Below are positions 37,996 to 61,759 of a stretch of DNA of 64,000 nucleotides, piece after piece (positions within the stretch are counted from its first letter, which is position 1; every line of letters begins with the position of its first letter). Both the position numbers and the translations under genes were made by a program. This DNA is from Owenia fusiformis (taxonomy: Eukaryota > Annelida > Polychaeta > Sabellida > Oweniidae). The DNA is taken from the NCBI GenBank assembly GCA_903813345.2, contig CAIIXF020000006.1, forward strand, positions 11,102,348-11,166,347, written 5' to 3'. The notes below the pieces were generated by a model that saw nothing but the letters and a program-made list of their open reading frames with translations, ran no database searches and was not told where the DNA came from.

Positions 37996-40038
37996 TGTAA
38001 TATCAGCGAATCGACGAATGTTTTTAATGTTTTTTTTTGTTAATACTAACACACAATATCAATCGCAAAGAGAAAATGAAATATTCTTTTAAAATAGTTT
38101 TTCACCGACAAGTATGCGTTTCTTTTAGCAAACAATAATATAAAAGTGTCTCTTCATGACATCACAAATAACTTCAAAATACAAAAAACAACAAACAAAC
38201 GTATAGACGTACAATAAAAATTTATCGTATGTTTAACATTCCATGCAGATTTACGAAGCTATTATATAACCGCAGTATCTACGTAAGTAGACAAAGGTGA
38301 TAAAATTCACTGTATAGTTGATAATTGCCTTTCACAACTTGCGATAGATGTTGGTGGGAAACCCCATTCAAAGAAACGCTTATAAATGCAAATGAAAAGT
38401 CAAGGTGATCCAAAATACGTTTGTATTAATCAATAAGTCTTTCTAGATTCTCGTATAAGAAGTACAATCGGAGGGCTTGACACGTTTTGAGAGGTATTTA
38501 GTTGCCCTATGTGGAAAAAGCAGACACGGGGCAGAAACGCAGTGATTCTTGATAAAGGTTTACTCCTGGTAAGAATACATGTTTGAAGATTTGCTCGTCG
38601 TGTTTACAAAATATTCTCTTATTAATTAAGCAGGTGTAAACGGTAATCACCCTAAAGGTGTTTGCCAAAAATATTGCTAAAATACTTAAGTTGCATATTT
38701 TGCTGTACTCGAGAATTGCTTCCCCATCTACATAACGTTGCTTTATAACTGAGATCGAACAGGATCGGTCTGCGTCTTTAATTAAATTATTGTTTGCAGT
38801 ATATGTTCTACTAGAGTCAGTGGGAACTGGAGAAGGTAGTGCCAAATGATCAAACCCAATAAGTTGTTGATTCTGATTAATAATCACAATAAATGGCCGG
38901 ACTTTTATTGTATATTACAAACTGTTATGGGGCGCGAGTATTTACTTATGATTAGCCTTAATTATTACCGGCTCTTATGACAATTTACATTATCTCCTAT
39001 ACGAGTATTGAATTCCTGTTAGTATAGACCGACCGATGTCACATACTATAAGTACACATAAATCAAAATATCAATATAATTCTCAACTATAGGAATCCAG
39101 ACCCCTAAGTGATCAAATTATCCCGTTCGGTATTGAACCAACACCTCGCAGTGAGTACGACAAAATGATAGCCTCTAGTGAGAATTGCTTGACATCCTAT
39201 GGATCCGCCGTTAACTTTTTATTCCAAGGGAATTCGATTATTGAAAGCTGGCGCATTTTTCCATCGCCTTATATTCCATTTAATTTTCATTTGTGTTCCG
39301 AGTGCTAATATCACGGCGAATATCCCACGTATACCCAGTCATTTCTCAGATTTTTCAAATCGAATTGCGCCAAATCCATTGGACGACCTACACTCCCAAC
39401 AATATCGTAACTTTGTTATTGACTCTAAGTAGGTTATACCCGACATTAACATACACATGTTATACCAGCCATGACGATAACAACGTTTGCACGACATGAT
39501 ATGCATATGTATATAAAATATAACCACATCCTAACTATAAATTATATTTTATTGCTTTATTAATACGTTGACGTAAAAGCACAATGAGATAATCAAACCT
39601 CTGTATTGAATAGTCACACTGAGAAAAATGTGGATGTCATGTGGATCCGAAGCGGCGTCATGTCATGTGGATCCGAAGCGGCGTCATGTCATGTCGAGCC
39701 AAAGCACCACTCGTATAAAGACGCGTGCAGCAACGCATAATTGTTGATATGAGAAATGACACACCTCGTGTTCATACCATAAACAAAAACACAAATTATA
39801 TCATTGTTGATGTGGGCAAGATGTTTATAAATCCGTTGCATAACACAAACAGTTTTGTTACAAAAACAGATTTTCAATTTGAAAACATGCAGGCCGAATG
39901 TAAATATACAACTTAAACGTCTCTCAAAGCAAAATCACGATATCTAATTTACATTATAAAAAGCATAATTGGATAAAAAATATAACAAAGGCTTGTTTGC
40001 TCAACTTTGAGAATTTCCAAGTTTAACTGTTCACTCAC
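37996..40038. other. probable intron 1 of the GABA-B-like gene
   Basis: The stretch lies directly downstream (minus strand) of a splice donor. No second exon was recognised. A 126-codon minus-strand frame at 38507-38887 has no recognisable domain. At 39639-39690 the motif ATGTCATGTGGATCCGAAGC with GGCGTC is repeated in tandem about every 27 bp. Confidence 0.4.
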
Positions 40039-40269
40039 CTGGGTGTCCTCGACAATCACCTCCAACTCGTAACCAGGAAGTAATGTCCGATTTGCATTGA
40101 CTTGTTCGATAGCCATTTGTACAGCTGGGAGGACTCCGAGTCCTATGTCACCTGCCTCCTTGGATAGGGGGAATAGTCCAGCCAGGTACAACTTTTGAAC
40201 ATCGTCCCCTTTGCTTAATCCCAGGAATAAAACTCCAAGGAAAGTCAAAATATAGTAAATTGACATCAT
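40039..40269 (-). CDS. GABA-B receptor-like class C GPCR, first coding exon (partial gene)
   Basis: This exon encodes the N-terminus of a metabotropic receptor that would sit in the plasma membrane and bind its ligand in a Venus-flytrap domain. It opens with two Met codons and a hydrophobic signal peptide (residues 1-20). LYLAGLFPLS follows, then GLGVLPAVQMAIEQVNAN and LLPGYELEVIVEDTQ, matching the start of the ANF-receptor/periplasmic-binding lobe of GABA-B receptors. The 77 codons end in phase 0 at CAG with donor GTGAGT at 40038. I did not find the following exons; they would lie at lower coordinates or outside the window. The first ATG was chosen because it precedes the signal peptide. A related family member (receptor guanylate cyclase or another class C GPCR) is a less likely alternative. 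Confidence 0.85.
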
Positions 40270-42639
40270 AATTGAAAGTTACTAAGCTTTTTTATGTTGC
40301 AGTTGAAACTCAGTTTCTCGAATCTATAGCGTTTCATATAGTGTCTTATCCTGTAACTGATTCTGCGGACTCGATTTCTTTTTTGTATTTCTGTTTTTTA
40401 AATGACCCAGAGTAGCCATCATGCCTTAGATGAAACAAGACTTCTTTTACAAGTCTATCGTGTTTCCATGTCGTTAAGAATCAATTGCAATTCTTCCATC
40501 AACAAGCCTTAGCTCTCGGTAGTGGCCGATTGGCAACTCAAACTGATTTAATTTCAAGTTAGCTTTTTCTGCGCTAAATAATCCACACGATTTGCCAATA
40601 TCACATCCTAGATGTTAAACACATATGTTAGGACTTGGAGTTGGTTTGTGTTCTATAAGTGTATTTATCCAAATTATCTGCGAATACTTAATCCTTGGGA
40701 TCTTAAGCTTTTTTCAAACAAAGCAAAACTTGTGAAATCAGACATAGCGCATTTGATTCCTAGTATTGCTTTCGCTGCTGTAGAAACAGATCTGCTAGGG
40801 ATCCGCTCTTCTCTGTGATCTGCTGAGCCAATACCCGCATTTTTCCAACTACTAACTCAGAACAGTGATATAGACACGTGATACGGGACCTAAATCATCC
40901 TTTTATAATCAGAGAAAGATTTAAGACCGAGCGTCGGTATCTGTTCCGGATCATTTCAGCATCCTCACACCTTTTATCAAAGATGTTTTACTTTATCTAA
41001 GGTCGTGTTTTCTTGTATTCTCTTTCCTTCACCACTCGTGAATTCATCCGGCCCCGGGCTAGTAAGGTTTATCGGAACGCAGAAATAACATGTGTTTTTA
41101 CCTTGTTAATGCCCTGTGTAATAAAGAACTATTCATCTTTCAAACAGTGGTAATCTATAGCTGGATTTCTCTATATCCATTTTCGCTGGAAATGAACTAT
41201 AAATCGAAATGTTCTACTTTATGTGAAATGAGGTCCGTCGCCTATATATCAGATAGAATTATTGACTTAGAACAGAGGAAATATAGCCTGGTTTCTTGTT
41301 TTCAATGCCTTTCCGATACTATTAGCAAGCTACCAAAACTCAATAGCTAAATTAAAAGGAAATTTTCCATTTTCATTAATATTTTGAGAAACTCAGTGAT
41401 TCATAGTTGAAATGAAAGTAAGCTTTGCCAGAACTCTTCTGGCAATCTAACACCGTCATCTGATCATTGGTCAGTGCTTCAAATAAAGACGTATATCAGC
41501 AACATATCACAGTGATGAGAGGTTTATATCTCCTTTCTTGCTATTTACAATATCATTATCGGCAAATTACCCTGCGCTGTAATTAATAAAAATATATTCA
41601 TTTGGTAAAATGCAACTACTTAAACCGTCAACAATATGTTCTATTATTTTTGCTAAACTACAACATTAAGATAAGATCACAAATACAGGTCATTATTAAA
41701 TGAGAGTAAAACTATCAACAATGTTTATTTCCCCATTTCCAATCGTGTCATATTCAGGATGAAGAAAAAATGCGTCGTATTGAAATGTTCACAAACCCCA
41801 CCCCCGCAATTGATATTATAAAACGATCAAGCAATAATCAAAAGAAATTGACAGTTATATCACTTTTATCTATTTATTAAACATTTCTTTTAAGTGGAGT
41901 TCAAAGTAATTCTCACGTTGTAATAATCGCTCAGTAAAAACATTTATTAAAGCACGAATTGTTTTTTTCTATTTCTTAATCTTGCTGTTGCTTGAAATCC
42001 AGAATATTGTTTAAAAGGAAAATCACTGGGCCCACATTCAGTACCCACAGTATCTTTCAACCCTCTGCACTGGTTAATGATATCCGAAAGATGAGAGAAA
42101 AACTGAATCTGAAACTTGAACATAAAGAAGGTAAAGCTAACTCCGCTAGCTACTGATTAAATGATATCTGAGAGTGGAAATGAAATAAAACAGTTCATAT
42201 CCATCTCCTACTATTTAAATTAGTAGCCCGAACTAGTACTGAACTTTATAAGAATTTACAAATTTAAAGCACCAAAATTCGGTTTTGGTCTATGAGGCTT
42301 TGCTAAAGATTTAGGTATGGGATTCAAAGAATTGTTGGCGGACTTACAAAACAAATGAGCATTTTGCCGAGACCTACGGATCAATGATACATGTACTCAA
42401 GATGTCATATTAGGAAGTGGGGATTAGGCAACACTTTTTAAGGTAACGTACGAGCTCGTACGGGAACGCGTAATATTAATACCCCGGGGTTTAATGTTCC
42501 CATTTCAATTGTTTTTGCCAGACGAAGGGGATATCTTATCTCGAGGGGACCATAATTCTAGACAAATGCCCATCTGTAATTCTATTTATCTGACATGATG
42601 AAACACATAATGTGGCCATCCCAATTAATGCTTCCAAAG
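40270..42639. other. upstream region of the GABA-B-like gene, intergenic
   Basis: The stretch should hold the 5' UTR and promoter of the minus-strand receptor gene, but no unambiguous TATA box or upstream exon was seen. An 86-codon plus-strand ORF (41090-41350) has no recognisable motif. Near 42483-42560 there are weak matches to the GGGGACCATAAT repeat family. Confidence 0.4.
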
Positions 42640-43685
42640 CACCCTATGCAGACAGAGCCTGTGGGAAATATTGGGTGCGGAGCAAATGAGCGGAGGGTGC
42701 GGAGCTAACGGTTATTTTTGAATTTAAATTTGGGATATTTCTGAAACTAAGCCGTTTTGGGACTTCAAATATACCAAGATATGTGTATTTGACACCAAAT
42801 ATCAATAATATTGTGAAAATAGTAGCGCAATTCATTCTATAGCGACGCAGTGTGCCTTAAACCTTTCCCAGACCTATATATTTTGAAATTATCCTTTTAA
42901 TACTGAGTCCCCAGCATTCATAAAAAATGGTGTTCAAGGTGCACTATCTATACAAATTATTTTTGCATCTTGGAAGCCAGGCAGTATCTGTGTGATTTTA
43001 TAAAAATTCGGAATTTTTTTCAGATATGAGCCCCCTCTAAATATTGGGTGCGGAGCAGCTCCATAAACGTAGCTCCGCACCAAGGAGGATTGGCTCCCAG
43101 AATGCAACACCGATATTCTGCAAAACAATCACCTAGCGATAGCTTTGTTGGAGAGTATCGGGTCATTCTCCATGCAGTCGTACAAATTATACAGACACGA
43201 ATAGCAAATGACGCATGCGTGGAGATTAAAGAATATCGAGTTGGAACCCTGGCTTCCAATCCTCCTTGGCTCCGCACCCAATATTTAGAGGGGCTCATAT
43301 CTGAAGAACATTTCCGAATTTTTATAAAATCACACAGATACTGCCTGGCTTCCAAGATGCAAAAATAATTTGCATGGGTAGTGTATCTTGAACACCATTT
43401 TTTATGAATGCTGGGGACGCAGTATTAAAAGGATAGTCTCAAAATATATAGGCCTGGGAAATGTTTAAGGCATACTGCGTCGCTATAAAATGAATTGCAC
43501 TACTATTTTCACAATATTATTGATATTTGGTGTCAAATACACATATCTTGGTATATTTGAAGTCCCAAAACGGCTTAGTTTCAGAAATATCCCAATTTTA
43601 AATTCAAAAATGACCGTTAGCTCCGCACCCTCCGCTCATTTGCGCCGCACCCAATATTTCCCACAGGCTCTGTCTGCATAGGGTG
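42640..43685. mobile_element. 1,046-bp palindromic transposon with mirrored ORFs
   Basis: The ends are CACCCTATGCAGACAGAGCC and its inverse, with a 5-bp direct repeat CAAAG on both sides (42635-42639 and 43686-43690). Each arm is about 400 bp and the two are highly similar; the central 190-230 bp is unique apart from a short inner GGTGCGGAGC hairpin. The word ATTGGGTGCGGAGC recurs several times. Each arm encodes almost the same 63-codon frame (42644-42835 minus, 43490-43681 plus), beginning MNC and ending FPQALSA, with six differences. These may be merely a consequence of the palindrome. No transposase was recognised, so it is probably non-autonomous. Confidence 0.85.
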
Positions 43686-43690
43686 CAAAG

Positions 43691-46111: not shown

Positions 46112-46333
46112 TTATGACTGAATGTAGCTAGCCCTCTCATTTAATCTATACTGAATGAAGGCAAACACAAGTACAGCAACGTAGGCTCCTGCTGCTACAA
46201 AACAATTGTTGGAAGTCTGTCTATATTGCGCAGTAATATAAGAGTAGCCTTCCTTTTGAAACTGCCCCTCATCAAATGGGATGTCTTCACTCAGGGCTGG
46301 GGCATTAATTCGTGCAAAAAGTCCAAGGAAGCC
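46112..46333 (-). CDS. RNASEK: RNASEK exon 2 (terminal coding exon)
   Basis: It holds 73 codons plus TAA, entered in phase 0 after TTTTCAG. It encodes the extracytoplasmic loop, the second helix and the basic tail. It corresponds in full to the remainder of animal RNASEK, so no exon is missing. Confidence 0.95.
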   Translation of the reverse strand, partial: GFLGLFARINAPALSEDIPFDEGQFQKEGYSYITAQYRQTSNNCFVAAGAYVAVLVFAFIQYRLNERASYIQS

Positions 46334-49300
46334 CTGAAAATACAATAAAAATGTAATGAACACTGAACAAGTACATGTATTTATCATGTTTTCATGGATA
46401 CAGAACATGGGATAGTCGGTCATTTTTCAACTTTCAGTTTCGAAACGATAATTTCATGCATCTTTTTTTTGCATATAGCAGTCGTTATAGGCTGTCCTTC
46501 GTTAAAAATAATATACGGGAATGAACCTACGGAAACAAAGAACTCTAGGAACTACCAATTTTTAACAGTGGACGTAGCTTGAGGAAGAAATCGACTCTGG
46601 AGCTAAAAATTTTGAGGTGAAAAATGTCGTTTTTTCATTTTAATCACTTCTTTACATATTCTTCAGATTTCTCAGCAACTAGTAGATGGATTTCTACCAT
46701 TTTGGGTAACTTTACTCTGTAGTGTTGTTTGAATCAGCATGTCGATTATTGAAAGGATTCCATATATTTTTACTGGATATATCTAACAATCATTTTCTAC
46801 AAATTTCAGGAAGCATCAACATCGGCCACCCTTTGTATACTCTTAATAACCAGAAAAAAAAGAATTATTTTTAACTCATCGGAGGGCTTGCCCGACCCTC
46901 CAGACAAGCCCCTGTGGAGATTACAGAGTAAATATTGATCACTCAATGCATGAGTGATGGAGGTCCATACGAGGGTCATATTTTAGGGTCATATTTTATT
47001 GAGTCTACCACCTATTGGGACTTGATCTGGCTCGCGAACCGTGGCTGGAGAGGCCTATTTTCAATTTCAATATTTTCTTTATCGTAAAGGCTAGAGTACC
47101 GACAATTGTCGGTACTCTAGACTCTGATGTGGTGGCACGCTAGAGGACCGACAAATAAATTGTCGGTACGGGAGATATGCTGTGTTTACACGCTAGAGGA
47201 CCGACAAATATTGATTTTCGAATTTTCTGGCGCATGCGCAATGCGCGGGGGAATATTCCAGACATCATACGGATATTTTGGGAACAAGTGCAAAACCCGG
47301 GGAGGGCATAAGCCCCGGTTAGCCGGGGATTACCAAACCCAGGTCAAAAAATGGTAGCCCGGGAACAGGGAATGGTAGTAAACGTTGAAAGGCCCAATAA
47401 AAAACATGAACAAGTAAGACGTTAGAGAGCTATTAATGTAGAGTAAACGGCTATATATATTCTAAACAGACAGGATATTTCTCCTGAGCCGATCAGGCGT
47501 AGAAAGGGGCGTTTGCTATCCATTAGATAGAAGAAAATAGCTAGAATGTTTTTTATTTGAAGCTTATGGTATGAGGTTCCATATCCATCCGCCAAAAGGT
47601 ATGACTATATAGTCCATTTAAAAACCTGTGGTATCGTTCTAAATAACCCATAGTTGGCTTCTAGGGTACCTAGTATGCCACTTTTTGGTGTCAAAATAAA
47701 GAGGAGTTCAACTTTCATTTGAATTACGAAAATAGTGATGTAGGTCAAAATAGTTCCGAACGTGAGCATGTTTACTACGCGTTTGCCCGTCATATCAGAA
47801 TTGAGGAAGTGGTAGCAAACGGGAGTTACAATAAACGGACGCTGATATCTCAAAAAGTAACCTGACTCCCTATAATTTGATGTAGGTCAATCGAACCGCT
47901 ATATGGACAGGTGCATTTTGATATATAACACTATGGGGGGTAAGCGTTTCATAGTTGGTCACGAACGCCATATGTGCAAAGTATTGTTATGAATTTTCGA
48001 ATTTGGTGTTGGATTACGGTACTCATACCTTATAGCACAATTTTTGATGGAAGTTGCATTTGGCTCCCTTAGTTATGGCCACGAGTCCATCTCGCATGAG
48101 AGAGCTACCAAACGCAAAGTAAACAGTGATATATTCCAAATGAGATATTTCTCCTGTGCCATGGCGTAGTAAGGGTAGAGAGCGACGGGGGCGAAAGCAT
48201 CCCCTCCCCTAACTGTATTTATCGACCCATTAGATAGAACAAGAAAAGAGCTTTAAAATGTTTTTTAATTGAAGCTTGTAGGACAATTTTGATGGAAGTT
48301 GAATCAATTTTTGTCGAAATAAATTATGGCTCACTACAAGTTAATGCCTGTACGATTCCATACTGCAAAAGAAGCACTATGCCCCCCCCCCAAAAAAGAA
48401 AAAAAAAAGTCGGGCCGGGATTCGAACTCGGGACCGGGTGTGTTAGAGTCGTGCTCGCTAACCATTCGGCTACCAGTGATGATGTTATTTCAAGAAGTAC
48501 AGTTGGGGACATAAATAAATGACAGGTGGATTTGCTGAAGTGAGGATTTCCCATGTTAAAAATAAGAGAATTTACAAGAGGCCATAAATCAGTGGATGAG
48601 ATTATACAAAATGTAAGATAAACAAATTTTAAGGTGCCATGGAAGTTAACAGGAAATGACGAAACAGGAAGTGAAATTTTTTTTTGCATTTTTGGACATT
48701 TTTTGAACAAAGATAACAGAGTTTTGGTTTGACCTCCAGTCAATTTAACTATTTCCACATATCATTTACATGACCAGGATCACAATGCGCATGGTCAGAA
48801 TGACCCTAAACATGATGAAATAAACTTTTTAGCCCTTTAAAAGTGTGACTGAAAAAAAGCTAAAAGTAGGAGCGTAGGGAAGGTCACTGAACAGAATCTT
48901 TTGAATTTTTCAGAAAATGTGCCCAATATAATGCTCTAACTGATACAATCTTTGAAATTTTAGAAAATTGTCTTAAACAAAAATGGCGATCATAAAAAGG
49001 ATAATAGATCGCTTTTCAAATCATTTTTTTCATTTTTTTTCTTTTCCTATGAATGATATCAAATTTTCAAAGATTGTATCATTTACAGCAATATATTGGG
49101 CACATTTTCTGAAAAATTTAAAAGATTCTGTTCAGTGACCTTCCCTACGCTCATACTTTTAGCTATTTTTCAGTCACATTTTCAAAGGGCTAAAAGGTTA
49201 TTTCATCATGTTTAGGGTCATTCTGACCATGAACATTGTGATGCTGGTCCTGTAAATGGTATTTGGAACTAGTTAAATTGACTGGAGGTCAAACCAGAAC

Positions 49301-50368
49301 TCTGTTATCTTTGTTCAAAAAATGTCCAAAAATGCAAAAAAAATTGTCACTTCCTGTTTTGTCATTTCCTGTTAACTTCCATAGCACCTTAAGGGATATG
49401 TATCTAGACAATATTTGAAATTATGGGCTTTCAGACCACCATAATTACACTGGTGATCCACTCGATTACGCTGGTTACCAAAACGAATCGTTTTGGTAAC
49501 AAAATGTCGGAACGTCGAAGGTACGATTTTTCTTTTTTCCTTATATCATGCGTTTTAGGCAGAATTCCCACGATGTTTTTATCACAAACGTGTATCAGCA
49601 TCATATGCTTAAGAAAATGTACATATTTGCGAACAAATAGTTCAGAAGACAACAGCATCGTCGATTTAATTACTCACTTAAGTTACATAAACGGTTTTTC
49701 GAAAAACGGTTAGATCTGCACTTTTAACCCAAACCGTTTATGTAACTTAAGTGACGAATTAAATCGACGATTCTGTTGTCTTCTGAGCCATTTTTTCGCA
49801 AACATGTACATTTTCTATAACATATGATACTGATATACGTTTGTGAGAAAAAAAGTCGTGGGGATTCTGCCTACAACGCGTGATATAAGGAAAAAAGAAA
49901 AATCGTACCTTCGACGTTCCGACATTTTGTTACCAAAACGATTCGTTTTGGTAACCAGCGTAATCGAGTGGATCACCAGTGAATTAGGAAATGGTGATCG
50001 AAAATCGACCTGTCATTTATTTTTGTCCCCAACTGTAAAAGTATTGGATTTATTTATGAAATTGTCGGCTCTCTAGCAAAAACACGTAGCAGCCACTTGC
50101 GTGGTTCTCTATCTGGCACTACTAGTTGACAATAGAGTGCCGACAATTGTCGGTACCCCAGCAAATACCCCTGGACTGTCTCCAGTACCGACAACTGTCG
50201 GTCCTGGAGCCACTCCGTTTTTTTATTTCTTCAGTATTTTTGATCACAAATTATTTTGCTTATAATCAGTTGTTTACGTCAATAAGAAGCCAAACTTACC
50301 AGCATTATGATACCCCATACACTGAGAATGATCCAGCATATCGAACACTTTGGTCCACAGATAGGCAT
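46112..50368 (-). CDS. RNASEK: ribonuclease kappa, complete two-exon CDS
   Basis: The CDS joins 50368-50300 and 46333-46112 (minus) into 96 codons, against 98 in the human canonical protein. RNASEK was described as an endoribonuclease and later found bound to the V-ATPase proton pump; it is needed for endosomal uptake. Visible features: CGPKCS and WGIIML in the first membrane helix (about residues 9-30), a luminal stretch with EDIPF, then NCFVAAGAY opening the second helix (about 66-84), and a basic QYRLNER tail. Alignment from the end of helix 1 to EDIPF has the same length as human. The intron is phase 0 with GTAAGT donor and TTTTCAG acceptor. The start codon lies 271 bp from the PLEKHF start in head-to-head order. 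The 3,966-bp intron is full of foldback elements. Confidence 0.95.
47091..47120. repeat. perfect 30-bp palindrome with CCGACAATTGTCGG core
   Basis: The sequence reads CTAGAGTACCGACAA followed by its exact reverse complement. Related half-sites follow at 47153-47167 and 47198-47205 (CTAGAGGACCGACAAAT). Similar palindromes lie 3 kb away at 50139-50207, so these may mark the borders of a larger old element. Confidence 0.8.
47408..48286. repeat. two direct copies of an approximately 170-bp segment
   Basis: The segments at about 47408-47572 and 48108-48286 share, in order, AGAGAGCTA, AGTAAAC, GATATTTCTCCTG, a GGCGTAG block, CCATTAGATAGAA, AATGTTTTTTA and TTGAAGCTT. The second copy has about 20 extra bases around CGACGGGGGCGAAAGC. 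No gene is involved. They lie about 700 bp apart in RNASEK intron 1. Confidence 0.6.
48379..48478 (-). repeat. tRNA-derived SINE head, minus strand
   Basis: On the minus strand there is an A box (TAGCCGAATGGTTAGCG) and a B box (GAGTTCGAATCCCG) at tRNA spacing, followed by a T-rich run and then G10. The 5' acceptor does not pair with the 3' end, so it is not a working tRNA. It is the source of the 144-codon minus-strand frame here. Confidence 0.75.
48500..50035. mobile_element. composite Tc1/mariner-type element carrying two long hairpins
   Basis: The outer inverted ends CAGTTGGGGACATAAATAAA and its complement (about 55 bp with mismatches) are flanked by TA on each side, as expected for Tc1/mariner-type insertion. 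Inside are two independent foldbacks. Hairpin 1 has arms 48629-48962 and 49050-49394; hairpin 2 has arms 49446-49697 and 49731-49983. Hairpin 2 carries in each arm a 27-bp palindrome (GTTACCAAAACGA, one base, complement). No transposase was seen. The whole sits in the RNASEK intron, so the pre-mRNA would contain long double-stranded RNA. Confidence 0.85.
50139..50207. repeat. pair of CCGACAATTGTCGG-type palindromes
   Basis: GCCGACAATTGTCGGTACC and then CCAGTACCGACAACTGTCGG with CTGG closing the stem occur within 70 bp, about 100 bp inside RNASEK exon 1. They match the motif cluster at 47.09-47.21 kb. Confidence 0.7.
50300..50368 (-). CDS. RNASEK: RNASEK exon 1
   Basis: It holds 23 codons, from ATG to CTG, encoding MPICGPKCS and most of the first transmembrane helix, with donor GTAAGT. 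It is too short for ORF scans and was found by reading back from the donor. The Cys-Gly-Pro-Lys-Cys start is characteristic of the family. Confidence 0.93.
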
Positions 50369-50446
50369 GTCGAGAATTTAGAAGAAATTGGTCAGAAATT
50401 TTGTAAAAATAAGTCCTCCTTCTTTTTTCAATGACAGTCTCGGAGA

Positions 50447-50454
50447 TCATGTGA
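50447..50454. promoter_or_regulatory. M-box TCATGTGA
   Basis: This is an exact match to the MITF/TFE M-box. It lies 79 bp upstream of the RNASEK start and directly beside an ETS-like TTCCGG. Confidence 0.5.
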
Positions 50455-50610
50455 TTTCCGGTTTAGAATAATGATTCATATCTCTGATTTAAACAACAAA
50501 GAGTTTCATCTGTGAATTATTAGGATAATTGAGAATTTATAACATATTGTAATTCATATATTTAGGATGAAAAACTGAACATAAGAACAAAAATTACCAA
50601 GCAAACTGAG

Positions 50611-50620
50611 GTCACGTGAT
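50611..50620. promoter_or_regulatory. CLEAR-like E-box GTCACGTGAT
   Basis: It matches the TFEB CLEAR consensus GTCACGTGAC at nine of ten bases and contains the palindromic TCACGTGA. It lies 20 bp before the PLEKHF ATG. Confidence 0.55.
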
Positions 50621-50639
50621 TTGTTCAGTAAAAAACAAA

Positions 50640-50655
50640 ATGGTGGACCGACTTG
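50640..50655 (+). CDS. PLEKHF2: PLEKHF exon 1 (micro-exon, 16 coding bases)
   Basis: It encodes MVDRL plus one base of the next codon, with donor GTAGGT. The sequence MVDRL matches the start of vertebrate phafin-2, and the split codon completes as Val on exon 2, restoring NSEAN. Confidence 0.88.
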
Positions 50656-53600
50656 GTAGGTGTAACACTTTTATTTTAGCCTTTTATAAGTGTGTTTTGT
50701 GGATTTATGATAGCTCATTTCAAGTCGCAAAGATTGAAAACAATGTACAGGGTGGTCCAAAAAAAAGTGAACCCCTGCAACAGGCTACAATTTTCTTAAT
50801 ACATGCATGAATTGGCTCATGTTATCACATGTTGTAGAGAAAGGTCTAAAATTTTGGTTGATACCATAATTTATTCTCAGTCTTAAATTTTGAAGAAATT
50901 ACAAGCGTTTAACAAACATGCCTGGAAATTAGATATTGTACAAAAGTTTACAAATGTGATTCACGGAAATTGTTGAAACACATTGGATGATCTTAAACAG
51001 CTTTCAGTTATAGATACAAGTTTAAAATCCTACCATATGACAAAAGGGACACTATTCAAGTAGAAAACACATTTCACACTTTCATTGATCATTTTGAAGC
51101 ATTTTTAACTGTTCAACAGTTCAGGGGTATGTTACCTTCACCAACAGTTAGAGGGGGGTCTCTTATGGAAGGAAGTTGCCCCCCGTGACCAGGAATCAGA
51201 TAACCCCTTCATCAAATATCTTTAAAAAATCAAAAGAAAATCCAATTATCAATGTTTTGAGCCATATATCATTAGAATTGGTCCATGATTTATGAAGATA
51301 TTGACATTTCAAGATCATATAGGGGTATGTTCATGATTTCAATGGAAAATGTTTTCGTCTGTGGAAGCTTAGCACATCTCTTTGGATCACAATAACTTTG
51401 CAACTAACAAATGTAGGATGCTAGTTTTAAGCCATAATGTGCAAGATTTAAGATTGAACAAAGTCAGAAAATATTAGTTCTTTAAGACTGCAGCTTAAAA
51501 AATTCTCGGGGGAAAGGTGTTAAAGGGTTGAAGAATCACGGATGTTGAAAATCACAATTTGTCCATTTTCAGTAATGTTTGGTTAGGGCTTATAATTTCT
51601 GCAAATTTCAAGACTAAGAAAAATGTATGATACCAACATAAATTTTAGACCTTCCTCTACAACATGTGAAAATAAAAAATAATTCCTGCAAGTAATAAGG
51701 GAAATATGGCCAGTTGCAGGGGTTCACTTTTTTTTGGACCACCCTGTATATTCGTAGAATACAAAGTCGCCTGTTAAAGATAATCGCAGGCGTTGAGAAA
51801 ATCTAGGTTTTGTTTATATTTTCGATTTTTTAAAATTTTTTATTTGAAACAAAAAATTCAGGAAGTGTAAAGATTTATGGCTGTAATGCCCATAGATGAC
51901 GAAACTTCAGAAAATTATGAGACAAATTATACCTCATTTTAATTGTCTTGTTATACTCTACCATTCTGACCATAGACTGTATCCTTCGTCTGAATAAATA
52001 TTCAGACTGTAAGTCACCTATTGTAAAATGTGGTGTTGTATAAATGTTACAAATAAGTTTGTTTAATGATAAAATGATTACCTTATGAAGAACTCACAAT
52101 ATTATTTTTTCGTATATTGTCCTCTTACTGAAGATATTCATAAAATGTACAGACGCTTCTTGTAGCGAAGCCATTGATTAGGTCAAGCCATTTTGGCAAT
52201 GCCAATTCTCACGATAAACGAGATTTAGCCAGTGACGTCAGTCTATTTGTAAACAAATAACACGTGGAGCGGGAGCAACATTACGGAAGCGTATTGATAA
52301 ATTCCATTTGTGCGGGAATTTATTAGATCTAGTCATTTATTATCATTATCCCGATTAATTTTCTTCATTTATAGTAAATAGAGCGGAAATATTCATGAAG
52401 AAGGCCGAGGTAATCAAGTGGTCATGTGTTGTCAAAGTTCAAAATTTGCATATCTCGTTTGGATCTCGTGAACTCAAACGTACTTGACATTGATTTCGCG
52501 ATCTACTTATGAACACATCCTGAAGTTTCGGTGAGTCTGAACATTTCATTATTTTATATCAACTTGTACCCGCCTTATACAAATATTTTTGCTTCTAGTT
52601 TAAGATGAACATCTCTTCAACATATTCACCAATTTTCAAGGTGAACATTCTTATAATAAACGAGAAATTAAGGCGACGCTATATTAAATAAAAAGTACAA
52701 AAAATGACTGCAATATTTTTTTGATAAAGACACATGTTTTTAAAATCTGTTTACCTTGTATATGAATTGTGTATCTTGACTAATGAAACATGTCAAAGTT
52801 AACATCACACATAAACGCATTTTTCCAAACTATGAATTGGAGGTGCATGGATCCCCAAAGCTAGCATGAAGAGTGCGAAGTGAGGCTATTTTTTGAAAGT
52901 TTCAAGGAGTAGCCTTGCAACAGTCACACATTTGCAAGAATTCAAAATTTCTAGATATAGTCTTACCTTACCAAGGAACAACGAAGGAGCACGAAAATGT
53001 GTACTTCTTGCATTGTTAGAGTATAATAAAGCTCAAACCATTGTGAATTCTAAATATTTCATGTCCACCATTTTGTTTCCTGGAACTATTTTTTAGTCCA
53101 GAGTTATCTTCATTCATGTTTCCATTGTTTATCATTCATAAAGCCTCTATCATGTATCTATCATGATAATTACACTGTAATAGATAAAACATACAAGTGA
53201 TAATCCATGCCACTTGGTGTAGTCACAAAACTTGCATGAGGATTAATCAGGAAGTCTAGAAGTAGTTCCGGCAAACAAAATGTGGACATGAAATATTTAG
53301 AATTTACAATGGTTTGAGCTTTATTATACTCTAACAATGCAAGAAGTGCACATTTTCATGCTCCTTTGTTGTTCCTGGGAAAGGTAAGATGATTTGTGGA
53401 AATTTTAGACTCTTGCAAATGTGTGACTGTTGCAAGGCTACTCCTTGAAACTTTCAAAAATTAGCCTCACTTCGCACTCTTCATGCTAGCTTTGGGGATC
53501 CATGCACCTCCAATTCATAGTTTGGAAAAATGCGTTTATTTGTGATGTTAACTTTGACATGTTTCATTAGTCAAGATACACAATTCATATACAAGGTAAA

Positions 53601-56600
53601 CAGATTTTAAAAACATGTGTCTTTATCAAAAAAATATGGCAGTCATTTTTTGTACTTTTTATTTAATATAGCGTCGCCTTAATGTGCAAAAAATATCACC
53701 GCGATTTCCATAGAAAATATATCAATCATAACAGACCGAATATTATATTCGGTCTGTTGGATACATACTAATTCTGACCACTAAGCGGTTTTCACAATAT
53801 TGATATTTCATCAGCGGGAGCTTCCACAGGATCTTGTAGCACCTTATATGGTATTGTTTATGATGACTGATATGGGGCTTTATATAGATAGAGAAGGATT
53901 ATAACGCGGACAAATTTCGAAAACTGGAAGTAAAAAAAATATATGAATTATTGGTCAGAATTTTATAATTAGGGTCTCATTTTGAAAAAAAATCTTTCTT
54001 CTGTAAGATAAATGTCACTGCCTAACATTTAGATAAATTTAAATAAAAGAGTTTCTTTACTTTCTGATACACATGCTAGGGACCGTTAGGTGCTGTACAA
54101 CAAAAACTCACCTTTATAGCGATTTCTCCCCAAATCTTTCGCCAATCAACTTGTCCTTTACTCGTAGAATCATTGACCCACTAGAGATTTGTAGGGATGC
54201 TGCGCTTATGCTGTTCAGCCTGTAAAAATATGTTATTTTGCCGTTTTAAAAATGAAATGTGATTTCGTAGATATTTTGGCAAATTCTAGCGGCCATCTTT
54301 GTGAATAATTATGACGTAAATTTTGAACCAATCAAATTGCAGAACCCCGGAGAAGAGCGAAATTCATAATATCTATTTATGATTTAAAATAGATTTGGGC
54401 AGTAAAACATTAAAAAAAACAAAAGATAAATATATATTTTTGTTTATTAACTATTTACATAATTTTTAATAGCCCCTTTCTATATAGAATTATGAAAGGT
54501 CAGACGGGTCAAGTTTACTACGTCATTATTTCAAGATGGTGGCAGAGATTCGTATCAAACAGTCGTATTTTTAAAATTAGTATGCTTTTACACATTTTTG
54601 AACAATAATAGTACAATTGGAACAGCGTATACCATTGCGTATGTGTGTATTACAACTGGATCAAACCAGAGATCAATCGACGAAACATTGAGGGAGAAAT
54701 CGATCGATAAGGTAAACTATGAAAAATATGTCTGTACAGGACTTCATGGTCTGATGCTAAGGTAACAGATAAGACGAAAAAATCATATTTGCAGCGTGTC
54801 TACAAGTAATATAATGACATGTATGTTGCCGCTAAATAATTTTTCTTAAAAATGAGACCCTTATTGTGGAATTCTGAACAATAGTTTTTTTTATTTTTTC
54901 ATTTACAGAACCCGGAAGTAGTGAAGTGTTATTACCCTTATTACTTATACTATAGGGCCTATCATAGTGCTCATCTCATATCATAGTGCTACATGTCTCT
55001 GTGTCCAAATCTGAAGGATGGCTTCAATGATTCAAAAAATGTGACCGCGCATAACAATGATATTTGGACACATGGCTCGTGGAAAAAGATTGGGTGTCCC
55101 ATCTTGAATGTTTACTGAGCTTCTGATCCTAATCTACAAAAGAATTTTGCTATCATCCATGGTAATGCCCACTGTTAAAGTTGCGATGCATTAGAAATAG
55201 CTTTTCCCAGAATCGTAGATATTTCAATAGTTTAGCCTACAGATTCCAACCATATCGTTTGTTATAATCTTTGTCTCGTATCTAGATCTATCTGTAGCTC
55301 AAAAAATCATTTGAATGTTATGGTAACCCTGCAATTCATGAGATCAGACTGGTGTCTTCACTTCGAGAACATACATGTCCATGATTTGGGAGGCCTGGTT
55401 AGTTGTTTTGGTGCATGACATTTGTCCTCGTCACTTATAGACAGTATTTTATTATACTGAGCATGCAACATTTAACCAAGTTTCTGGGTACCACAGAGAG
55501 TATACACAAATATAACAACACATACATTATAGATTCCATAGCCTCTATTACATCTGGAAAAGAATAGTCGGGGATACTCTCACTATCGTTTGATAAAGAA
55601 AGACTCAGAATGCCTGTATTACTGTACTCTGTGCGCATCTAGTTGCTACGAGTCTAGTTATAAACTACCCTCTGCCTAGTATAGATAATATTACAGTTTA
55701 GCAACCCTGCCCCCACGATCGGTACCTGTGACAGCCGAGGTTATAAATCTTTTCAAATCTACCATGCTGACCTTTTCTCAATCAATTAGCGAACTGGAAG
55801 GAACACATACTAAATGCGCGGTCACATATAGAAAGTCATCCATATTTTGACGACGAGCTCTGATTGGCTCGGTGAGATCAGAGACTTATTGTAAACGGAA
55901 AGAGTGAAGATGAAGCTCTCTTTTAAGATATGAAGCTAATGAATACAAAGGGTAATATTACTGGTACTTTTCTAATCTTTATTTCACGAGTTGTAGGCAG
56001 AATTTTCTCAATATTTTTATCACAAATATATGTCAGTATCATATGTATCAGGAAATCTCCACATGACCAACCAGAAGTACCATACTAATATTTATTTGTT
56101 GCATTCAGAATTTGGTCAGACTTTTCCCGATGTGCATCGATGTTTACTATTGAAAATTGTGATGCATCGATGTACCATTATGGCACATCGCAACACTACT
56201 ATTGTTACATAAATTGAATGGTGATAGAAGCGTTATTTAATTTTTGAATTATTTCAATTGTCTTTGTAAAACTTTATTAAGCCACAGTGTTGGAGGATAC
56301 AAAATGACTTTAAAATGATGTGAAATATAAACGTTCAATCAAAAGTTAGTTGTATTCGCATGTTTATATTTAAATTACAGCAAAGTATGAGTCATTGCCA
56401 ATCAAGGAAACAATATATTTCAGTTTCACATTATGATCATGCTATAACTTTGTGTGAATAGCGATGCAAGTAACCTTTACATTCCTATTCCACATGCTAT
56501 GCTTTTCTTTTTATTTCAATGACCGACACATAATCATACAACTTACTTTGAATGATGTTTCTCATTGCCCACGCTCTGTGTTTTTCATGATATTATATTA

Positions 56601-59600
56601 TGAATGCCGTTTGTCATTCCCTATGATGAATGTTTGGCCTTTACCCGAAATAATAAATGTTGCTTGCACATCTTAGTCATTGTAAATGCCAGAATAATTT
56701 TATATGGATTCCAATGAAAATGACTGCATCCATTGCAGTCTTTAATATTTCACATGCAATATGAGCAACATGCCTGTAGCCAGCTTTTTGTAAAGGGGGA
56801 GGGCTTGAACCCTTCCCCCTGCCCATAATAAAAAATTCCATGCTAAACCAACAACTTGGGCGACCCTGAAAATTCAGAGGGTGGAACAACAAATTCTTTT
56901 AAATAATGCTCAAAATTCAAAACAATGCCCAATAATTCCAGTTTTCTATCTAAATTGTCATATTTTTGTGGAGAGGAGCAGATTTTAGGCCCCAAAATTA
57001 GAAAAAGAAAGAAATATGTTCAAGATTGCACGAGCCCCCAACCCTCCTCCCTCCAGTCACCCTGGATATGGGCCTGAGTAATACAAAGACAGACGTCAGA
57101 CAAAAATGTGCGTGCACGTTATTTGAAAAAAGAAATAACTTCAGTAAGCATGATGGTCTTCGAAAAGGCTCTGTTAGATTAGATGAATCAAAGCTACAAA
57201 AACCAAATTAAGTCTCCTGTTTAAAACGCCCTATTCTTCACTAAATTGGTTAGATTCTAGGTTTGCTCAGTAACATATTTCTCCTTATATCGAGAATGAC
57301 CAGAATAGTGAAACCAATTGTTAAAAATTCTTAATACTTCTGGTAGAATGCGCATCAGTTTCTTTATGAAAACTAAGACTTGACTTCATTATCTAGCTGG
57401 TAATGAAATATATTTTGAAAAAGATATACTGTCTGTTTGTGCAACAGTGGTTGATATTCTTCCATATTACAGAATTTACAGTGTATGCTTAGGCAAATTA
57501 GACAGGTGTACTGAATTTTATGTATTTTTGTTGTTGTAGTAAACAGTGAGGCCAATGCTAGGCGAATAAACCTGGTAGAACAGGCATTTGGGACCTCAGG
57601 ACAGGTAAGCAACTTTATTCACTTCATCTTCACATTTTTTACTATTATAAGTGAATGATATTCACTTTTGCGAAAATTCAAAATAGTAGATTGCAACAGT
57701 CAGAGGGTCGTTTGTTTCACTGGTGAGTTTTCACTGTGCTTGAAACAAAAGTGATCTCAGTGAAAGGAATTAAGGGCTAAAGGGAGCAATTCAAGAGTCT
57801 TAAGTCAGATTGCCATATAAACTACAGTTATTCAGTAAGTGGAAGTCTGAATAACATTTTAGATCAATGGATTGCCCCATACAGTACTGTTCCCTGGAGA
57901 ATATTGTTAATATTTCAACTCATATATAGCAAAATTACTCCAACCAGCCAAATTATTTAGAATTATGATTTTAACATGGAAATACCTTCCTGCTCATAAA
58001 ACCCCTTGTAATTGGAGCAAATGTAATTTGTAAGTATATAATTATGTATATGTTTCAGTCATTGGTTCAGACAGGACGTGTGCTCGTTGGGGAAGGGGTT
58101 CTTACTAAAATGTGCAGGAAGGGAACTAAACCAAGGCAATTCTTCTTATTTAATGATGTTTTAGTCTATGGCAATATTGTGATAGCCAAAAAGAAGGTAA
58201 GCTATTAAAGCAGTAGTATTCATACACTTCATGTATTTATTAACTTGGTTTGTTATGTCACCACCAGAAGTGGTTATGTATTGTCTCCTAACTTTTTTAT
58301 GGACAGTGTTTGGCATTCAATGGTTGGTTTTCAGTGGTTAGTGCTTGGTGTCTGTGACAAATGGCAGGTGATGCATTTCACATGTCAATGCCTTCTTATG
58401 TATTACATTATGCTGTTCAATCTTCAAAACTGTAAACATCCAGTGAACATGTTACATGATTTACAAATGTACCTGTCGAATTGAACCCGTCCCAATATTA
58501 TTTTTCATAGAATTTTAGAATTAAATCTGTGTAAAAAATGTAAGTTTGATCATAATTTTAACATCTCAGAATGAACCCAACTATCTGTAAGCAAACTTAC
58601 AGCTATGCATTTAAGCCAGGAGATTCAATATTTTTCTGTATATTACAGTATAACAAGCAGCACATAATTCCCCTAGAAGATGTAACCCTCACCCCAGTGG
58701 ATGATGAAGGCAGTAAGTGAACAGCATACACTTTCTAATTTCATATTGTCTAATTATTTGTGACTGAGAAAAACTGTGTCTAAGGTCGATTGAACTAATT
58801 ATTTGAAAAATCAAAATACATGTAGGAATATTCATGCTTATGAAATCTAGTGCAATTAACTCACTCGAAATGTTGAGACATGCGCAGAGCTCTATTTAGT
58901 GATATTTTCATTTCAAATATGGCGGCCAATCCGATATCTGACGACCCTTACAAAGAATCTAGGCAGTGTGCATTTTTACCGCCTGTGAGATAACAAGTGG
59001 AATTTAGTAGTTGTTTTGTGTTTTATTATCATTCTGCATCGTAATTCTATGTGATGTGGTGTTGAAATGTCAGCAGAAATACATATCCATACGATAATTG
59101 AGTGAATCAGATAACAGATTTTTCGAAAACCCGTCTCGTGCTAAGAGTGTAAAAACTTGTATTAACATGCTCATAAGTGCCAATGTGCACATCAATGTCA
59201 AGCTAAATCAATGTTGTGTCTAAAACAGGTACCTGATCTACTCAAAACAGCTTGTCATTCACGTATACACGCTTAGCAAACACGGCGAAATGATCTGAAT
59301 CTTAGAATTTCGTTCGAGAGCTAGTAATGTTTGCTCCTGTCTTCGTCATAAGTGTTCATCAGACTTCACGCATGCTCATGAGAAAAACCATCAACCAATA
59401 ACGTTTATAAATCAATTTTGCGCATGCGCCTTACAACGGTAAACAAATTCGTATTTATAAACGAACCAATTTGAGATAACCCGATGTCAGTCGGAGAAAT
59501 CTGACGAACTACGAAAGTCACTTCAAAAAATCAAATGCGGACTGACGGCGCATTCTACTATGTTTGGATCTAAGATTTTCAGTATAGATAAAGTCTTTTA

Positions 59601-61759
59601 TGATCTTTCGAATGAGGTTAGTCTCTAGTTCGAAAGACAATCGTATCAACTTGAACAAAAGTTGAGTTTTGACGAAAAATTTTAACATGCGCAGAAGTCC
59701 CATTTTCGTTGTACCATATTGACTGAACTGATTTCTCATTTCCTCTTCTACTTGGTAACGACCAGACTTAGGAAATAGACTAAATATTGGGCAACAAAAT
59801 ACAGTTACTTAATTCACTAGTAATCATTTACACATGCAGAATGGAAGGTTAAGACTAAATTGATCATTGTGTTATTACTTGCCTTTTTAATTGAGAATGT
59901 GCTGATATATTTCAGATTTACGTAATGGTTGGCAGATCAAGAGTCCGTTCAAGTCATTCACAGTCTATGCTGCTACAGCCACTGAGAAAACTGAATGGAT
60001 GGCCCACATAAACAAATGTGTGCAAGACCTTCTCACTAAAAGTAGGGAAATCTGCTATTAAATTGAGAAATGTCACAAAAAACATTTATTCACTTTTTGA
60101 GATCAGATCACTAAGAGGGAAGGAACACCTATCAGTATTCTAATTGTAAAATAACAAATATGGTCTCAGTACAATATTAGGTAATTTCATGTTTTTTTAT
60201 GAGGAGGCAGGAATGTATCTGCAAACCATCCCTTTCCAATTCAAATGCAAGAATTTAAGAAAATTCATCGAAACTGTTTTTGTCTGAAAAACATTTCTTG
60301 GCTAACTGGTCCAAATATTGACCAACAATGGAAACCCAAATTTTTCCCTGGCCTTACAGTTTCCTGTTGTATTGTAGGAGGCAAGGCCAAGTCAGATATG
60401 GAGGATTCTCCAGTGTGGGTACCTGACAAACAAGCCACACACTGTATGCACTGCAAGAAATCTGAGTTCACTGTGCTCAATAGGAGGGTGAGTGAAATCT
60501 ACTGAAAAACATTAACACATTCCTTGGAGGTTGAATAAGTTGGAAGTGATTTGAATAGACAAATTTTGCTTATTCCGAGAAACGAAGCGACACACAATTT
60601 TGTTACATTTTAGTATTTCTGTTACTGATTGATCTGATTAGTAAAGCAATAAAAAATTCAATTATTATGAGCTTTGTGAAATCATCTTGATAATGCCTTT
60701 ATGCAAGCCTCATTCCTGTTTCAGCATCACTGTAGGAAGTGTGGAATGGTTGCATGTAGCAACTGTACTAGTAAAAAATGGCTGTTTCCCCAACAGTCAT
60801 CCAAGCCTCTACGTATTTGCCTCACCTGCTATGACCAACTTGCTAATGCTCCCAATGCTGAGCAAGGTAAGTTTTATGTCATCACAAAGATGTGATGACA
60901 TATTGTTATAGTCACCATTTTTGAGACCTGTTTGTTGTCACCATTTGGTATTTGTGACATAATTCATTGTCTCTGAAGGAGAAACCTTGGTATTTGCGAT
61001 TATTTTGGCAATAGACTTTAAAATGCTTATACAAATTAATGCATTATTAGACCAAACATCTTTTTTGATCTGGGATCATAAAACTGCACCAGATGATCAA
61101 TTAAAGTTGCCGCTAATGATTTTTATAAAACTTTTGCAATCGATTGCATGTCTATTATTGTTAACTGAAGGAATAAATATATGTATATTAAAAAAATCAA
61201 CTCAAAGTAAAACTATATAAAACTTTATTCACAACTGCTTAATTTCATACTATAATATATTCCAGAAAAAGCTGCCCAAGCCCCTGCTGGCCAGAATTAT
61301 GATTCTGATTCCTCTGATGACGAAGATGATGACGTACCTAATGATGCAGAAAATAGTGATCAGGTAGAATCTGTTATTTATTGTTATAAGAAATAAGCTT
61401 AGGGGGTCATCTCATATATTTTGCAGTTATAACCTTAATCATGTTTGTTTATTGGTAAGAGGCTTTTTGTAAATTAAATTTTATAAGGGAGAGCATTTTC
61501 AACTTCAAAAAAGTTGATTCACAAGGTTGGGTGGATGGATTGTTCAGCACTGTTCATAAATGTGATTGAATTATGTCATCTTACCAAAGGGTGAAAGTTG
61601 AATGAATTTAATAAGGATTTTATTACAGATTTTACAGTTATATTGTGTTACACCATTTTAAATCTAACTCTTGTGATAAATAATGAATATATTGTATGAC
61701 ATATCCTTTTTCAGCCAACCTTTTATGAAAACAAAAATCACGGAGCTACAAAAACGTGA
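50640..61759 (+). CDS. PLEKHF2: phafin (PH and FYVE domain protein), complete nine-exon CDS
   Basis: The CDS joins 50640-50655, 57540-57604, 58059-58196, 58649-58712, 59916-60041, 60378-60487, 60725-60866, 61266-61363 and 61715-61759 into 267 codons (human PLEKHF2 has 249). Phafins bind PI3P on endosomes and lysosomes and act in endosome fusion and autophagy. MVDRL and NSEANARR open the protein. A PH domain spans about 35-131 (GEGVLTKMCRK, RQFFLFNDVLVYGNI, YAATATEKTEWM). A FYVE finger spans about 149-215 with WVPD, RRHHCRKCG, RIC and four CxxC pairs (159/162, 176/179, 184/187, 205/208). An acidic tail follows (DSDSSDDEDDD), like the polyD tail known to restrain the PH domain in human phafin-2. 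All borders are GT..AG and frames join exactly. It is closer to PLEKHF2 than PLEKHF1 and may represent the pre-duplication gene. Confidence 0.95.
50748..51746. mobile_element. 999-bp Tc1/mariner-type non-autonomous element
   Basis: The ends CAGGGTGGTCCAAAAAAAAG and complement are flanked by TA. The inverted similarity continues for about 170 bp on each side (for example CACATGTTGTAGAG with GGTCTAAAATTT). The interior has no ORF. It starts only 92 bp after PLEKHF exon 1. Confidence 0.88.
52668..53682. mobile_element. 1,015-bp palindromic element with about 430-bp arms
   Basis: The left arm 52668-53105 and right arm 53240-53682 are inverted near-identical copies, with ends TTAAGGCGACGCTATATTAA and complement. 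The loop is about 135 bp. TTAA at both tips could be a TTAA target or part of the arm. No ORF of note. In PLEKHF intron 1. Confidence 0.88.
53731..53758. repeat. short hairpin CAGACCGAATA / TATTCGGTCTG
   Basis: The 11-12-bp arms around a few AT bases could form a stem. It lies just outside the 1-kb palindrome. Confidence 0.6.
53899..54930. mobile_element. TIR element of about 1 kb
   Basis: The left end (53905-53990) and the reverse complement of the right end (54845-54930) share ATTGKTCAGAATT, AGGGTCTCATTTT and an A-rich block with some gaps. The interior is unique AT-rich DNA. The exact ends are uncertain. Confidence 0.6.
55889..55954 (+). mobile_element. 75-79-bp miniature element, diverged copy 4
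   Basis: It retains GATGAAGCTCTCTTTTAAGA, ATGAAT-like words and the end ACAAAGGGTA. The left end is degraded and no target duplication was seen. It lies in PLEKHF intron 1. Confidence 0.55.
56771..57077. repeat. repeat with GCCTGTAGCCAG...CCTGGATATGGGC ends
   Basis: The stretch begins TGCCTGTAGCCAGC, has G- and C-rich blocks near both ends (GGGGGAGGGC, CCCCCAACCCTCC) and ends CACCCTGGATATGGGC. The pattern resembles the G/C-run element class seen at 27-29 kb, but I cannot align it to those copies. Confidence 0.35.
57540..57604 (+). CDS. PLEKHF2: PLEKHF exon 2
   Basis: It encodes residues up to 27 (NSEANARRINLVEQAFGTSG then Q), matching the conserved N-terminal helix before the PH domain. The acceptor is TTGTTGTAG and the donor GTAAGC. 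Confidence 0.92.
58059..58196 (+). CDS. PLEKHF2: PLEKHF exon 3, first half of PH domain
   Basis: It holds 46 codons in phase 0, residues 28-73, with GRVLVGEGVLTKMCRK and RQFFLFNDVLVYGNIVI. These are the beta strands and basic loop that contact phosphoinositide. The donor is GTAAGC. Confidence 0.96.
58649..58712 (+). CDS. PLEKHF2: PLEKHF exon 4
   Basis: It encodes residues 74-94 (YNKQHIIPLEDVTL...) and one base of codon 95. The acceptor is TATTACAG and the donor GTAAGT. Confidence 0.93.
59916..60041 (+). CDS. PLEKHF2: PLEKHF exon 5, second half of PH domain
   Basis: It encodes residues 95-136 with NGWQIKSP, VYAATATEKTEWM and HINKCV, the conserved C-terminal helix of the PH fold. The donor GTAGGG is weak. 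Reading on gives TKSREICY then a stop at 60059, so the splice is needed to reach the FYVE exons. Confidence 0.92.
60378..60487 (+). CDS. PLEKHF2: PLEKHF exon 6, start of FYVE finger
   Basis: It encodes residues 137-173, including WVPD (the WxxD FYVE motif) and CMHC, and ends RR just before HHC. The acceptor is ATTGTAG and the donor GTGAGT. The surrounding 86-codon frame starts inside the intron and is not the true start. Confidence 0.94.
60725..60866 (+). CDS. PLEKHF2: PLEKHF exon 7, core of FYVE finger
   Basis: It encodes residues 174-220: HHCRKCG, ACSNC, RICLTCYDQ. With exon 6 it completes eight zinc-binding Cys and the R(R)HHCRxCG signature for PI3P. The acceptor is CTGTTTCAG and the donor GTAAGT. 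Confidence 0.96.
61266..61363 (+). CDS. PLEKHF2: PLEKHF exon 8, acidic tail
   Basis: It encodes residues 221-253 with DSDSSDDEDDDVP, equivalent to the polyacidic C-terminus of phafin-2. Without splicing at CAG|GTAGAA the frame would end about ten codons later at TAA, which gives a possible alternative C-terminus. Confidence 0.9.
61715..61759 (+). CDS. PLEKHF2: PLEKHF exon 9, last coding exon
   Basis: Fourteen codons and TGA (PTFYENKNHGATKT) follow a strong polypyrimidine acceptor CTTTTTCAG. The choice over intron retention rests on the splice signal; no conserved motif confirms it. Confidence 0.65.
   Translation, partial: PTFYENKNHGATKT

Follow-up and report, generated by a model that had tools for sequence, protein, structure and literature searches.

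The 64,000-nucleotide stretch of DNA analysed here (the window) contains two protein-coding genes, RNASEK and PLEKHF, that are transcribed away from each other across a short spacer. The gene models and the spacer are as follows.

46112 to 46333, minus strand: RNASEK coding exon 2 to the stop codon, AG acceptor (gene model, PDB and Pfam matches)
50300 to 50368, minus strand: RNASEK coding exon 1 (MPICGPKCSICWIILSVWGIIML), GT donor (gene model, PDB and Pfam matches)
50369 to 50639, no strand: intergenic spacer, putative bidirectional promoter, 271 bp between the RNASEK and PLEKHF start codons
50640 to 50655, plus strand: PLEKHF coding exon 1 (MVDRL, phase-1 donor; gene model)
57540 to 57604, plus strand: PLEKHF coding exon 2 (VNSEANARRINLVEQAFGTSGQ; gene model), after an intron 1 of 6884 bp
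58059 to 58196, plus strand: PLEKHF coding exon 3, where the PH domain begins (gene model, Pfam)
58649 to 58712, plus strand: PLEKHF coding exon 4 (gene model)
59916 to 60041, plus strand: PLEKHF coding exon 5, where the PH domain ends (gene model, Pfam)
60378 to 60487, plus strand: PLEKHF coding exon 6, where FYVE begins (gene model, Pfam)
60725 to 60866, plus strand: PLEKHF coding exon 7, FYVE (gene model, Pfam)
61266 to 61396, plus strand: PLEKHF coding exon 8, acidic C-terminus (limits set by hand from the frame, end tentative)

RNASEK is encoded on the minus strand by two coding exons, which are separated by a GT-AG intron of 3966 bp, and its ATG is the codon at 50368-50366. The 96-aa product has hits to 'Ribonuclease kappa' chains in the PDB (best E=1.6e-23) as well as to the Pfam family V-ATPase_su_f (PF23489; 29.8 bits, cut-off 27). 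By sequence, RNASEK is classed as a member of the V-ATPase subunit f family, and because of this Pfam match it can be named as a V-ATPase subunit, beyond a mere associated factor.

PLEKHF (phafin) has eight coding exons on the plus strand, joined across GT-AG introns, and extends from the ATG at 50640-50642 to 61396. Inside exon 8, GTAGAA follows GATCAG and is a possible donor, hence the tentative end. Exon 1 contributes no more than 16 coding bases, the five codons of MVDRL and one further base, and its phase matches exon 2 exactly to give MVDRLVNSEANARR. The 263-aa model contains PH (PF00169) and then FYVE (PF01363), both above the Pfam cut-offs. It matched 17 PDB sequences, which belong to other proteins with a PH or FYVE domain (FGD5 scoring best, E=1e-15), and no phafin chain is among these 17. 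A short protein with an N-terminal PH domain followed by FYVE has, as far as sequence can tell, the architecture of PLEKHF/phafin, and the name phafin was chosen because of the domain order, the length, and the N-terminus, in which MVDRL is joined by splicing to VNSEANARRI. This start (MVDRL..NSEAN) presumably resembles the phafin N-terminus. Vertebrate PLEKHF genes have one coding exon, and the multi-exon structure of the present gene therefore suggests that the animal is an invertebrate. The identities that the earlier note had assigned are borne out by these data, via PDB and Pfam for RNASEK and via PH and FYVE, their order, the length, and the N-terminus for PLEKHF.

The start codons diverge and enclose exactly 271 bp, in agreement with the distance first reported. 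Each gene has an in-frame stop before its ATG, at a distance of 12 nt for RNASEK and 33 nt for PLEKHF, and therefore neither gene has an upstream coding extension in the unspliced frame. Further ATG triplets are present in the spacer, the closest being 73 nt upstream of the PLEKHF start codon and 82 nt upstream of that of RNASEK, so long leaders would contain upstream ATGs. Divergent protein genes with starts less than 1 kb apart are regarded as head-to-head, and the present pair belongs to this class by the ATG-to-ATG distance, the starts being known here from the start codons. Because of this layout, RNASEK and PLEKHF probably use a shared promoter.

The spacer is AT-rich (28.8% G+C, compared to 35.4% in the window) and contains no CpG island, with a CpG observed/expected ratio of 0.72 that equals the window value. 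One TATAAA and one CCAAT are present in the spacer, both near expectation, and no other clear core element was found there. A fly-type initiator at each start was considered and rejected, as TCAKTY occurs 259 times in the window and 1.1 matches are expected in the spacer. The motifs considered below are the following.

50387 to 50391, minus strand: CCAAT pentamer close to the RNASEK ATG (weak; 0.68 expected by density)
50441 to 50460, no strand: 20-bp near-palindrome CGGAGATCATGTGATTTCCG centred on the M-box, 8 of 10 position pairs complementary
50447 to 50454, plus strand: TCATGTGA, M-box or dCLEAR 8-mer, from the motif scan, 78 bp from the RNASEK ATG
50455 to 50462, minus strand: ETS-type site ACCGGAAA adjoining the M-box (ACCGGAAR has 5 sites in the window; 0.021 expected in the spacer by density)
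50611 to 50620, plus strand: GTCACGTGAT, CLEAR-type E-box, 19 bp from the PLEKHF ATG

The motif scan confirmed the positions of exact TCATGTGA and TCACGTGA sites, one close to each start, as the earlier note had described them. The TCACGTGA 8-mer at 50612-50619 lies within GTCACGTGAT, 20 bp from the PLEKHF ATG, and is the only copy in the window. The pattern TCAYGTGA, which near a start is the criterion for a CLEAR element or M-box, has two distinct sites in the whole 64 kb, both inside the spacer and one for each gene. In the available passages of PMC6355916 the CLEAR element is given as TCACGTGA, which is present in the spacer, and in those of PMC13392030 it is the full 10-bp palindrome GTCACGTGAC, of which GTCACGTGAT carries 9 of 10 letters. 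Because this palindrome is incomplete, the site is labelled CLEAR-type, short of a proven CLEAR element.

Across the window there is no excess of TCAYGTGA (3 strand-counted matches, 4.94 expected) or of CACGTG (6, 5.90 expected). An order-3 model predicts 0.020 TCAYGTGA sites in the spacer and P(>=2) of ~2e-4, a value that presumes a motif and an interval fixed in advance, which neither was; the corresponding values from the spacer's own base and dinucleotide composition are ~5e-5 and ~5e-4. A motif-blind control was based on all 8-mers with one R/Y letter that are present exactly twice in the window, and on 2000 random 271-bp intervals. The spacer holds two such window-exclusive pairs, and 16% of the random intervals hold at least two. 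Co-location alone proves little, because this share of random intervals equals or exceeds the spacer, and the clustering of both E-boxes taken by itself is only suggestive. The sites gain weight since TCAYGTGA is the motif that prior knowledge would lead one to expect for both genes, and the spacer E-boxes are somewhat more likely than not to be functional.

The second exclusive pair of the control brought up the near-palindrome CGGAGATCATGTGATTTCCG, in which a CGGA (ETS-type) half-site stands on each side of the M-box. Outside the 6-bp core, 6 of 7 pairs are complementary, the highest value among the 36 CAYGTG sites in the window and one reached by 0.26% of all positions. Of the 36 sites, 7 have a CGGA/TCCG tetramer no more than 14 bp away, so a single ETS-type neighbour is ordinary in this window; by eye, only the M-box has one on both sides. 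The near-palindrome was noticed after the fact and is therefore a lead and no test, a new feature that goes beyond the claims of the earlier note. Combined literature searches found no publication on TFE3/ETS composite sites, on an RNASEK promoter, or on GABPA and TFEB together.

Two core promoters could also be independent and merely close, with E-boxes placed by chance and no co-regulation of the genes. The result of the random intervals and the lack of any other clear core element beside near-expected TATAAA and CCAAT agree with such an arrangement, and pairing is common, as head-to-head genes make up ~10% of genes in eukaryotic genomes according to the available text of PMC4089025. It is nonetheless improbable in view of the order-3 P of ~2e-4 for both sites in the spacer, the match of both sites to the family expected for both genes, and the M-box being the most symmetric of the 36 CAYGTG sites. 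The paired starts and lysosome-type sites suggest, short of proof, that the genes are switched on together.

A different question is which factor would read the sites. GTCACGTGAT also fits USF-type and SREBP-type E-boxes and so does not discriminate MiT/TFE from these factors. It contains GTCACGTG (3 sites in the window, one in the spacer), and its other strand, ATCACGTGAC, fits ATCACGTGAY. GABP is an ETS factor, and the ETS site ACCGGAAA adjoins the M-box. For human head-to-head pairs, GABP is described as essential and c-MYC is named as well in the available passages of PMC4089025. These features are in line with a generic housekeeping promoter, bidirectional and constitutive, in which an ETS (GABP-like) factor and a broad E-box factor such as USF or SREBP act without lysosome-specific control. 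Such a promoter seems rather unlikely here, though a serious contender, as the M-box TCATGTGA is more characteristic of MiT/TFE than of USF/MYC. It is also the precise fly V-ATPase motif (PMC10452791, available passages). The spacer resembles animal bidirectional promoters, which are often ETS/GABP-driven, in its divergent ATGs well below 1 kb apart and its ETS-type site, and differs from them in being AT-rich and without a CpG island.

Precedents for a lysosomal role of such sites come from insects and mammals. For dCLEAR and Mitf control of V-ATPase genes in flies, PMC10452791 cites Zhang 2015 and Bouche 2016 as primary papers. In the available passages of PMC10452791, the motif ranked first for 17 fly genes related to the V-ATPase is TCACATGA/TCATGTGA. 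Enrichment of dCLEAR is found between -50 and +150 relative to the start and beyond that up to 1200 bp downstream, and is significant in first introns. The same passages state that the dCLEAR region is in most cases conserved among insects, that only 385 of 779 drosophilid V-ATPase genes have dCLEAR in the homologous region, and that 1000 random fly sequences contain 161 occurrences (PMC10452791). Neither RNASEK nor TCACGTGA appears as a term in the main text of PMC10452791, and CG40127 is not mentioned among the matches listed in the literature search; in Drosophila, CG40127 is the RNASEK gene and rush is PLEKHF. The RNASEK side of the spacer is similar to insect dCLEAR/Mitf V-ATPase genes, in that the same 8-mer lies close to the start of a V-ATPase subunit gene, and unlike them in that the present site has ETS-type half-sites around it and stands in a spacer that a second gene shares.

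In mouse neurons, Plekhf1 has a predicted CLEAR motif, and its promoter accessibility and mRNA rise while TFEB/TFE3 enter the nucleus (PMC13392030, available passages). In mouse macrophages, Plekhf1 also ranks with the genes under the strongest regulation by IL-4 and Stat6 (PMC3880092, available passages). Dissociation constants of MITF are given as 2.6 nM for the M-box, 1.5 nM for the E-box, and 0.9 nM for the CLEAR-box in the part of PMC6355916 that was available. RNASEK is not named as a TFEB target in the literature passages available on RNASEK with TFEB. As in the vertebrate TFEB/TFE3 CLEAR network, a TCACGTGA core stands beside a lysosome-related gene; the incomplete match to GTCACGTGAC sets the present site, known from sequence alone, apart from the network consensus, and the animal is probably not a vertebrate.

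RNASEK and PLEKHF were not found in print as neighbours, and two publications with both names do not deal with such a pair, judging by titles and the beginnings of abstracts. Searches with RNASEK (viral contigs) and PLEKHF (viral and genome contigs) gave no relative, with 10, 21, and 127 pattern matches, none of which was confirmed, in collections of viruses and prokaryotes that are uninformative on animals.

The earlier note had listed a non-coding first exon among the outcomes that would count against its view, and candidate acceptors are indeed present before the PLEKHF ATG.

50418 to 50437, plus strand: CCTTCTTTTTTCAATGACAG, the stronger of the candidate 3' splice sites oriented towards PLEKHF (score 7.08; 202 nt before the PLEKHF ATG)
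50620 to 50628, plus strand: TTTGTTCAG, possible 3' splice site (score 4.75; 11 nt before the PLEKHF ATG)

A third possible acceptor in this direction scores 3.83 at 116 nt before the ATG, and the RNASEK direction has two, one 206 nt (score 3.4) and one 141 nt (score 3.16) before the ATG. If the acceptor at 202 nt were used, both E-boxes would lie inside transcribed PLEKHF sequence. The exon with the PLEKHF ATG might not be the first, or might start further left, with a non-coding exon or spliced leader joined 11 or 202 nt upstream, and the CLEAR-type box would be in an intron, an outron, or the 5' untranslated region and not before the start. The scores of 4.75 and 7.08 fall within the leave-one-out range of the coding acceptors (3.2-9.0), and the further acceptors on both sides point the same way. 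The matrix was built from only 8 coding acceptors, and 5.8% of all AG dinucleotides score above 4 and 1.7% above 7. Moreover, RNASEK fills the other side, so that a more distant PLEKHF start would sit in the spacer or overlap RNASEK, and upstream splicing of PLEKHF seems quite doubtful on balance. Even such a structure would leave control by the sites possible, as dCLEAR is enriched in first introns as well (PMC10452791, available passages).

Most likely, the spacer is an ordinary bidirectional promoter with CLEAR-type sites, both of already known kinds. The best explanation of the locus as a whole is a bidirectional promoter with E-boxes that are read by MiT/TFE and raise both genes, a proposal we hold at about even odds. 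It is supported by the layout, the exclusive TCAYGTGA pair, the fly and mouse precedents, the MITF dissociation constants, and the ETS site. Against it count the 16% of random intervals, the ordinary occurrence of a single ETS-type neighbour, the fit of the sites to other bHLH-zipper factors, and the possible acceptor 202 nt before the PLEKHF ATG. From the insect study, the limited share of drosophilid V-ATPase genes with dCLEAR, its occurrences in random sequences, its significant enrichment in first introns, and the absence of RNASEK and TCACGTGA from the main text count against it as well. The 271 bp would act as a compact bidirectional promoter, with RNASEK transcribed leftward and PLEKHF rightward, and each start would have its own bHLH-zipper site, namely the M-box in the ETS-flanked near-palindrome for RNASEK and the CLEAR-type E-box for PLEKHF. 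The most likely reader would be the MiT/TFE (Mitf/TFEB) orthologue of the animal, although the chances that this family reads the spacer sites are evenly balanced. Nutrients or lysosome stress may cause nuclear entry of the orthologue, which would induce a V-ATPase subunit jointly with a PI3P-binding endosome/lysosome adaptor. Basal levels may come from ETS-driven expression, with MiT/TFE acting on top.

The earlier note had interpreted the spacer as a compact promoter that co-regulates an acidification factor and a lysosome-positioning or autophagy factor through MiT/TFE-type sites. This interpretation is supported in part, and the motif also fits USF/SREBP. The layout, the compact spacer, and the exact sites stand, and a MiT/TFE lysosomal link is plausible from the dCLEAR and mouse Plekhf1 precedents in the available passages of PMC10452791 and PMC13392030, neither of which the earlier note had cited.

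A bolder proposal, and a long shot, is that the ETS-M-box-ETS dyad and the CLEAR-type box form a conserved invertebrate unit, through which MiT/TFE would couple the synthesis of V-ATPase subunit f with a PI3P-reading lysosome/endosome adaptor. RNASEK would thereby join the Mitf V-ATPase regulon, with PLEKHF as its linked partner. If so, ancient Mitf/TFEB control of the proton pump would reach the late-recognised subunit f, gene order itself would serve the co-expression of the pump and the endosome-lysosome adaptor, and the spacer would provide a compact natural dual reporter with which to follow TFEB activity in an invertebrate. Otherwise, the locus is still an ordinary, well-defined pair of head-to-head genes. 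The significance is modest unless the RNASEK-PLEKHF pairing proves conserved.

Several other features were observed in the window, which contains 89 ORFs of at least 70 aa. A Pfam scan of ten further ORFs gave no match at E 0.01 for nine, and four sub-cut-off matches only for one repetitive ORF. An ORF at 39952-40278 (minus strand) encodes a hydrophobic stretch, after which a ligand-binding region begins (Pfam ANF_receptor, 29.5 bits, cut-off 25.4), and by resemblance we take it to be perhaps the first exon of a GABA-B-type receptor; the window motif scan found no TCAYGTGA near it. No Rfam match reached the gathering threshold in the window. ARAGORN called no tRNA, including at 48400-48480, where an A and a B box look tRNA-like by eye and possibly belong to a tRNA-derived SINE. 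A minisatellite at 31575-31955 contains an open frame of 127 aa in which a SRFTKLTQVHLKSFHQAYPSPP-like unit is repeated.

In the RNASEK intron, at 47092-50209, nested long inverted repeats (48616-49405, 48823-49199, 49448-49981) are bracketed by a CCGACAATTGTCGG-like palindrome, which occurs at 47092, 50133, and 50181 and, in part, at 47194. In PLEKHF intron 1, 86 bp past the first coding exon, 188-nt inverted repeats at 50742-51752 are 80% complementary, end in GGGTGGTCCAAAAAAAAGTGAACCCC, and are flanked by TA; we take this element to be like a Tc1/mariner-type MITE. Among the repeats listed, the one closest to RNASEK exon 1 ends at 50209, and the one closest to PLEKHF exon 1 begins at 50742. 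The inverted repeats at 52667-53683 and 42639-43686, with arms of 414 and 380 nt that are each 95% complementary, are perhaps young foldback-like elements.
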